The translations under genes were made by a program, and so were the position numbers. Source: Pelagibacteraceae bacterium AG-325-E13 (lineage in GTDB: Bacteria > Pseudomonadota > Alphaproteobacteria > Pelagibacterales > Pelagibacteraceae). Taken from it: a stretch of DNA of 64,000 nt. A model generated the notes under the pieces. The model had not been told where the DNA came from. It searched no databases and saw nothing but the letters and a program-made list of their open reading frames with translations. The DNA lies in the NCBI GenBank assembly GCA_003282965.1, contig QBYF01000001.1, positions 1-64,000 of the forward strand. Direction: 5' to 3'. Positions 7,691 to 8,749 of the stretch are shown here, piece by piece (position 1 is the first letter of the stretch; each line of letters begins with the position of its first letter).

Positions 7691-7894
7691 TTACAATTTT
7701 TTAATATTTATTGCTTGGAGTTTATTTTTTTCTTCTTTTATATCGAATTTTATTTTTTGCTCTTCTTTTAAAACTCTCAACTTAGACTCTTCTAAGGCTG
7801 AAACGTGTAAAAAAATATCCTTGTTTGTTTCATCATCAGTAATGAATCCGTAACCTTTCTTAGAATTAAACCATTTGATTTTACCTGAAGGCAT
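7691..7894 (-). CDS. Cold-shock domain protein (CspA family)
   Basis: 67 residues from the chosen start MPSGKIKWFN. RNP1 is KGYGFITDD and RNP2 is DIFLHVSAL, both intact, so it should bind single-stranded RNA/DNA as an RNA chaperone. An upstream in-frame ATG at 7909 would add five residues (MRGSI). The later start is preferred because AGAGGA lies at a proper distance before it and the family begins this way. It is co-directional with rpsU and trcR, a translation-related cluster. Confidence 0.93.
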   Translation of the reverse strand: MPSGKIKWFNSKKGYGFITDDETNKDIFLHVSALEESKLRVLKEEQKIKFDIKEEKNKLQAINIKKL

Positions 7895-7919: not shown

Positions 7920-8114
7920 TTAGTATCTATTTTTTAATTTTTGGAGTTTTTTAATTCGTTTGATATTTTCAGTTTGAACTCTTTTTTTTCTTTCAGAGGG
8001 TTTTTCATACGTGCTTTTCATTTTCATAACTTTAAAAAAACCTTCTTTTTGTAGCTTTCTTTTCAAAACTCTAATAGCCTGTTCAACATTATTATCTTTT
8101 ACGTCTATTTTAAT
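7920..8114 (-). CDS. rpsU: Small-subunit ribosomal protein bS21, apparent ATT start
   Basis: 64 residues if read from ATT at 8114-8112. The product aligns end to end with alphaproteobacterial bS21: KIDVKDNNVEQA at the N-terminus, RVLKRKLQKEG, MKSTYEKPSERKKR and a basic tail. The codon at the expected Met position is ATT. No ATG, GTG or TTG exists in frame between the upstream in-frame stop and the conserved region; the first in-frame ATG is codon 30, which would remove half the protein. A perfect GGAGG sits five bases before the ATT. An in-frame CTG overlapping the GGAGG is the only other near-cognate start but has no ribosome-binding site. Confidence 0.88.
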   Translation of the reverse strand: MKIDVKDNNVEQAIRVLKRKLQKEGFFKVMKMKSTYEKPSERKKRVQTENIKRIKKLQKLKNRY

Positions 8115-8119
8115 AAAAA

Positions 8120-8124
8120 CCTCC
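8120..8124 (-). promoter_or_regulatory. Ribosome binding site that fixes the ATT start of rpsU
   Basis: GGAGG on the minus strand, followed by five T residues and then ATT (8114-8112). Spacing is ideal for initiation at the ATT. This is one of the stronger Shine-Dalgarno sequences in the window; many genes here have none that is obvious. Confidence 0.8.
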
Positions 8125-8150
8125 AGTTAATTTTACGTTAGTTATCATTT

Positions 8151-8176
8151 GCTTCAGTAATTGTCTATACTGAAGC
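8151..8176 (-). other. Stem-loop overlapping the trcR stop codon
   Basis: GCTTCAGTA and TACTGAAGC form a perfect 9-bp inverted repeat around an 8-base loop. The 5' arm encodes the last codons of trcR and the loop holds the TAG stop. No T-run follows, so it is not a standard intrinsic terminator. It may protect an mRNA 3' end or separate the trcR and rpsU messages. Confidence 0.5.
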
Positions 8177-8749
8177 TAATTGAGCTTTTTTTTCTTCTCT
8201 AATTTTAGCTTTTTTCTCTCTTTCAACTCTTCTTTTAGCTTTTTCGAGGCTTTTTTGAAAAGTCTCTTGCGTGCATAAAGCTAAAATCACTGGGTCTCTT
8301 GGCTTAAGGTTAGAAAAGTTCCAATAACTTCTTTTTCTAATTAACGACACCGTATTTTTTGTGCTTCCAACTAATTTTGAAATTTGTCCATCGGTTAACT
8401 CTGCTGCATTTTTACATAACCATAAAATAGCATCTGGTCTATCCTGCCTTTTAGACAGCGGCGTATATTTAGGTTTTTTCCTAGCTTTTAACTCAACTTC
8501 GTCCACTTTTTTAATTAAACTTAGATCTTTCGTAGGATCTTTTGAGCAGACTTCAATTTCATCTCTAGATAATTGACCTGCTAAAATAGGATTGTAGGCC
8601 TTAATTCCCTTAGCTACATCTCCATCAGCAATACCTTTGATTTCAAGCTCGTGGAGATTACAAAATTTTGCAATTTGTTTAAATGTCAAAGTTGTGTTTT
8701 CTACTAACCAAACAGCTGTGGCTTTTGGCATAAATGGCGCTTCAGACAT
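8165..8749 (-). CDS. trcR: Cell-cycle transcriptional regulator TrcR (DUF1013)
   Basis: 194 residues. The opening PFMPKATAVWLVENTTLTF is characteristic of the DUF1013 family, named TrcR in Caulobacter. A central helix-turn-helix-like segment (LTDGQISKLVGSTKNTVSLI, about 118-137) and a Lys/Arg/Glu-rich C-terminal helix follow. The family is largely restricted to alphaproteobacteria. Its role in a streamlined cell with few regulators is unknown. It starts three bases after the rpmE stop and is probably co-transcribed with it. Confidence 0.88.
   Translation of the reverse strand: MSEAPFMPKATAVWLVENTTLTFKQIAKFCNLHELEIKGIADGDVAKGIKAYNPILAGQLSRDEIEVCSKDPTKDLSLIKKVDEVELKARKKPKYTPLSKRQDRPDAILWLCKNAAELTDGQISKLVGSTKNTVSLIRKRSYWNFSNLKPRDPVILALCTQETFQKSLEKAKRRVEREKKAKIREEKKAQLASV

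Follow-up and report, generated by a model that had tools for sequence, protein, structure and literature searches.

The gene rpsU, which encodes ribosomal protein bS21, almost certainly starts at the codon ATT in SAR11, a group of bacteria unmatched in abundance in the sea. This codon stands close behind a strong Shine-Dalgarno (SD) sequence, and comparison among relatives makes it very probable that selection keeps the start weak. A codon of the ATH type (ATT, ATC or ATA) is found at this place in every congeneric genome in which the start can be read. The window, the whole stretch of DNA that was analysed, comprises 64,000 nucleotides from Pelagibacteraceae bacterium AG-325-E13, and coordinates refer to it.

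The rpsU gene and its surroundings

On the minus strand of the window, rpsU occupies positions 7920..8114, with 64 codons and a stop. Its product scores 57 bits against the bS21 family (Pfam PF01165), where the cut-off is 27, and the core of the family is conserved. A search of the window's own genome finds the gene in a single copy.

The rpsU frame reads AAT TAA CTG GAG GTT TTT ATT AAA ATA GAC GTA on the minus strand. The start codon ATT lies at 8112..8114, and the SD sequence GGAGG (8120..8124, minus strand) is separated from it by the spacer TTTTT (8119-8115). An in-frame TAA at 8127..8129, 15 nt 5' of the ATT, closes the upstream frame. The earlier note had proposed a start at ATT behind GGAGG, and its coordinates are exact: the codon runs from 8114 to 8112, with the SD five bases before it. 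It had also held that no usual start codon is available in frame before residue 30. This is right for ATG, which first occurs in frame at codon 30, but a TTG at codon 17 (8064..8066, minus strand) is the first usual start downstream and would yield a truncated protein of 48 amino acids.

The order of genes on the minus strand is trcR (8165..8749, a Pfam match to PF06242), rpsU, a cold-shock protein gene (7691..7894, a Pfam match to PF00313) and a gene whose sequence suggests a TypA-like GTPase. The cold-shock protein gene is probably cotranscribed with rpsU.

Between trcR and rpsU lies a conserved TAGACA...AATGATAACTAAC (8137..8167, minus strand), which has similar spacing in relatives. The TAGACA...AATGNTAAC pair overlaps the stop codon of trcR and may be a SAR11 promoter followed by a leader of roughly 20 nt. 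A consensus scan found no sigma-70 promoter on the minus strand, despite the conserved TAGACA and AATGNTAAC. An inverted repeat, GCTTCAGTA/TACTGAAGC, surrounds the trcR stop codon at 8151-8178; its arms show no evident conservation in relatives. The rpsU leader folds no better than its shuffled versions (z 0.55). On this ground the idea that a fold in the leader serves as a repressor site was rejected, and the result argues against a classical binding site for a ribosomal protein.

Conservation of the start codon

Within the genus, 169 genomes were searched for the exact pattern ATH-Lys-Ile-(Asp/Glu)-Val-Lys-Asp-Asn-Asn. It is present in 130 of them, with ATT in 125, ATA in 3 and ATC in 2. With ATG, GTG or TTG in place of ATH, the pattern occurs in none of the 169. 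The 39 pattern-negative genomes consist of 35 without any rpsU match (mostly single-cell or incomplete genomes), one in which the gene is cut by a contig end, and three that carry ATT. All 133 readable congeneric rpsU genes have an ATH start (128 ATT, 3 ATA, 2 ATC).

ATG can be reached from ATT by a single base change, yet it is absent among the congeners. The claim that the initiating residue of bS21 falls on this ATT, against which an ATG in related strains would have spoken, has therefore stood: congeners with ATG number zero. From residue 2 on, the protein sequence of bS21 is kept in all relatives.

Similar arrangements are found outside the genus. In a complete genome from another genus of the family (G183), rpsU reads TAGGAGGTAGGTT ATT AAA, with an in-frame TAG just upstream. 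In the sister family, all 12 rpsU genes read (T/A)AGGAGG...ATA GTY GAA. The ATA is invariant behind TAAGGAGG, and the codon after it alternates between GTT and GTC.

The third base of the start codon is also restricted. In conserved genes of the window genome, isoleucine is encoded by ATT in 54% of cases, by ATA in 36% and by ATC in 10%, whereas the rpsU start is ATT in 87 of 91 distinct leaders. The third base is thus held more tightly than in an ordinary isoleucine codon, although these leaders come from related species and the counts are not independent. That every species with a readable start keeps a weak codon suggests that bS21 output is deliberately held down, and probably also regulated, by the cell.

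Evidence that translation starts at ATT

The 91 distinct congeneric leaders vary in the manner of coding sequence. Lys2 is encoded by AAA or AAG, codon 4 is GAC, GAT, GAA or GAG, and Val5 is GTN. Such synonymous-type variation from codon 2 on means that translation begins at or before codon 1.

How far upstream it could begin is limited by an in-frame stop at exactly -15, present in 83 of the 91 distinct leaders. The SD occupies -10..-6, and the four codons that separate the stop from ATT lie mostly on it. Given this stop and the position of the SD, ATT alone is well placed as a start. Two upstream candidates were rejected. A usual start codon in frame occurs in only 2 of the 91 distinct leaders, at unconserved places, and the CTG at -12 sits on the SD and varies between CTG, CAG, CCG, AGG, CGG, TCG and TTG.

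The same leaders share a strongly conserved block from -20 to +10 (AAAATTAAC.GGAGGTTTTTATTAAAATAGA); further 5' they are variable and contain indels. Codon 3 of rpsU (8106-8108) is ATA in 98% of congeners, compared with 36% of isoleucine codons, so that a synonymous base is constrained near the rpsU start.

Translation could instead begin inside the gene, at the ATA of codon 3, the TTG of codon 17 or the ATG of codon 30, and produce a shorter protein. The near-constant ATA of the leaders and the TTG of the window would be compatible with this, but the residues before codon 17 appear to be translated, because codon 2 always encodes Lys and codon 4 undergoes only synonymous changes or exchanges between Asp and Glu. 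Moreover, the first usual codon shifts between positions 10 and 32 across congeners, and GGAGG stands 11 nt from the ATA of codon 3 as against 5 from the ATT. An internal start is very improbable.

Still less credit is due to entry into rpsU by a +1 frameshift from a short upstream ORF, as in prfB. An ORF that overlaps the rpsU start does exist in the window genome (ATG ATA ACT ... TAT TAA), but among congeners the leader indels change the frame of the upstream ATG relative to rpsU, and the stop moves too. Since neither the frame nor the slip site is conserved, a programmed frameshift of the prfB type can be dismissed, and rpsU does not belong to that class.

A sequencing or assembly error in which ATG was misread would involve only one base, but this idea, like that of chance, is refuted by conservation: 133 species-level genomes, each sequenced independently, and the complete genome G183 all have this codon class.

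A strong Shine-Dalgarno sequence with a weak start

How unusual rpsU is within its genome can be seen from a screen that compared 838 kb of the window genome with 1.2 Mb of G183. With overlapping ORFs removed, it gave 686 conserved, non-overlapping ORF pairs. Only two credible genes, prfB and rpsU, have an N-terminus that is conserved upstream of any usual start in both genomes. The recovery of prfB, a known case of frameshifting, validates the method. Most of the other flagged items either lie on C4 at 54.6-58.7 kb, as short frames that resemble an rRNA locus, or have unconserved N-termini. SAR11 prfB itself (G000:C1:116380-117421) shows the conserved N-terminus upstream of any in-frame start that is expected from its +1 frameshift.

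Roughly nine out of every ten conserved genes in the window genome start with ATG. Of the 644 conserved genes with an assigned start, 8 have GGAGG in the SD region. Judged by its sequence, rpsU couples an SD that ranks among the strongest in the genome to a start codon that ranks among the weakest. The 3' end of 16S rRNA was not found with GGATCACCTCCTT in the 838 kb and 1.2 Mb that were compared.

Start codons of rpsU in other bacteria

At 70 other alphaproteobacterial loci, including that of G183, rpsU starts with GTG in 34, TTG in 10 and ATG in 16, and 10 have none of these; as 40 of the 70 were chosen largely from low-scoring, divergent matches, the counts are not fair frequencies. Only 2 of the 30 best-scoring loci have ATG. 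Among the ten loci that lack a usual start, seven carry ATH and belong to about six families that are not part of SAR11, and two carry CTG. ATC, ATA, ATT or CTG stands where rpsU should start at loci L163, L165, L168, L170, L172, L179, L185, L195 and L202.

Two comparisons bear on this pattern. For rpsR, taken as a control from the same set of genomes, an in-frame ATG lies upstream of the core in 29 of 30 loci. In a wider sample of the phylum, 21 of 22 rpsU loci that match an E. coli-type query have ATG. Set against these counts, avoidance of AUG characterizes rpsU in this class and is most extreme in SAR11.

Genes for bS21 are also carried by phages. On HTVC008M-like viral contigs they start with ATG (32 distinct genes) or TTG (7), and ATH is found in none; the starts of 8 distant viral bS21 genes could not be placed and are outside this count. 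Many viral bS21 genes (L395-L474) have a strong SD, AGGAGGTGATATA ATG. We infer that the phage copies would lie outside any start-codon control of host rpsU.

A broader reading is tentative and falls somewhat short of an even chance. According to it, Alphaproteobacteria would control bS21 by means of the codon at which its mRNA starts, and bS21 synthesis would read out the stringency of initiation, either as the ratio of initiation factor IF3 to 30S subunits or as the presence of 30S subunits free of bS21. The signal would be a weak GUG or UUG in most orders and an IF3-rejected AUU, AUA or AUC in SAR11 and several other lineages, and phage bS21 would escape with AUG or UUG. For E. coli IF3, GTG and TTG are canonical starts, so that the class-wide pattern may mean a weak start and not an IF3 switch.

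How a weak start may control bS21

To our knowledge, experiments have established for very few genes that IF3 controls them by rejecting their start codon. IF3 discriminates against any start that is not AUG, GUG or UUG, and E. coli infC, which begins with AUU, is autorepressed in this way (PMC5472188). The sigR gene of Streptomyces, with a GUC start, has been proven by experiment to be repressed by IF3, and infC and sigR are the only genes with proof of such repression at a non-canonical start (PMC5472188). The likeness to infC drawn in the earlier note therefore stands, but its view that such starts are known from infC alone does not, as sigR is a second case.

On this model, the strong SD with its five-base spacing would bring the 30S subunit to the rpsU start. 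Imperfect pairing between AUU and fMet-tRNA would expose the initiation complex to rejection by IF3. The output of bS21 would be held down and would track the ratio of IF3 to 30S subunits, being high when 30S subunits outnumber IF3 and low when IF3 is plentiful. That the ATT start is kept and that rpsU output follows discrimination by IF3, with IF3 as the agent, is the reading we favour, at slightly better than an even chance; both the repression and its direction are taken from the known biology of IF3. Feedback on rpsU from the level of IF3 or the state of the ribosome, as the earlier note envisaged, is plausible.

The infC gene of SAR11 bears on this reading. In the genus of the window, the GTG start of infC adjoins the stop codon of thrS (TAAGTG) in 22 of 22 cases; the window genome's own infC is locus L136, and further infC loci are L364-L392. 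With a GTG start, IF3 is not obviously homeostatic in Pelagibacter, and this counts against a role of IF3 at rpsU. In the sister family, no usual start is suitably placed at infC; a conserved ATA six bases behind GGAG (GGAG ATTAAA ATA) appears to be where it starts. Start-codon control of infC thus seems to have been lost or changed in Pelagibacter and kept in the sister family, and Pelagibacter rpsU seems to keep its own.

Alternatively, the weak start may simply fix a low, constant yield of bS21 per mRNA, and sense neither IF3 nor the state of the ribosome. Such tuning could, for example, bring the output of a highly transcribed gene into line with ribosome stoichiometry. The GTG and TTG starts across the class fit a general weakening, and conservation alone does not separate a fixed output from a regulated one. 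A lower yield could, however, be had from a weaker SD; what is found instead is a strong SD joined to a weak start, the layout of infC. Within the genus the codon also stays ATH, with no drift to GTG or TTG. Constant low output is an unlikely explanation, though one of some weight.

A further possibility is that the composition of the ribosome itself is sensed. Protein bS21 adjoins the mRNA exit of the 30S subunit. It sits on the platform beside the anti-SD, and in Flavobacterium johnsoniae ribosomes depleted of bS21 specifically translate rpsU by means of an extended SD (PMC9976891). In SAR11, 30S subunits without bS21 would prefer the strong-SD, weak-start rpsU mRNA, and a shortage of bS21 would raise its synthesis. 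Besides this precedent (PMC9976891), the idea gains from the unusual strength of the rpsU SD, which few genes of the genome share and which extends to TAAGGAGG in the sister family. In the genus of the window, however, the SD comprises no more than six bases (GGAGGT), as against 9-13 pairs in Bacteroidota (PMC9976891), and other SAR11 genes have SDs too. Sequestration of the anti-SD would apply to SAR11 only by analogy, and sensing of ribosome composition by itself leaves the AUU unexplained. As the main signal, bS21-free ribosomes are unlikely, somewhat more so than constant output.

Significance

A non-canonical rpsU start was not found described in the literature searched, which left most subscription journals out of reach. 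The start-codon device is known as a kind; its use on a ribosomal protein gene, fixed across a major clade, appears to be new. If control by IF3 is real, a ribosomal protein gene with an IF3-rejected start would be fixed in SAR11 and recur in other Alphaproteobacteria, and a device of one codon would link the composition of the ribosome to the fidelity of initiation. Pelagiphages, for their part, bring a bS21 gene whose start is normal, and this bears on why phages encode the protein. The start also matters for annotation. Since standard gene callers accept only usual starts, they will tend to truncate rpsU or miss it.

Relation to known systems

The E. coli orthologue of rpsU starts with ATG and lacks GGAGG (AAGGTGAGAGGCAC ATG). 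The closer likeness is to E. coli infC, which reads GGAGGAATAAGGT ATT AAA where SAR11 rpsU reads GGAGGTTTTT ATT AAA; both have GGAGG followed by ATTAAA. The two differ in spacing, 8 nt in infC and 5 nt in rpsU. They also differ in product: infC encodes IF3, but rpsU encodes bS21, and SAR11 has a separate infC with a GTG start. Control of rpsU by IF3 would therefore be cross-regulation and not autoregulation.

With infC and sigR, SAR11 rpsU shares a conserved start other than ATG, GTG or TTG. The sigR gene of Streptomyces resembles it further as a gene for a product other than IF3 whose conserved, non-canonical start is usually misannotated (PMC5472188). It has GTC, encodes a sigma factor and is proven by experiment, whereas SAR11 rpsU has ATH, encodes a ribosomal protein and is known from sequence.

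F. johnsoniae offers the same gene, whose SD is likewise unusually strong in a genome where SDs are scarce (PMC9976891). A system of that type has a nearly unique SD of at least nine pairs; the SAR11 SD is the 6-base GGAGGT, or the 8-base TAAGGAGG in the sister family. Thus F. johnsoniae rpsU combines an SD of 9-13 bp with sequestration of the anti-SD, and SAR11 rpsU combines an SD of 6-8 bases with a non-canonical start (PMC9976891).
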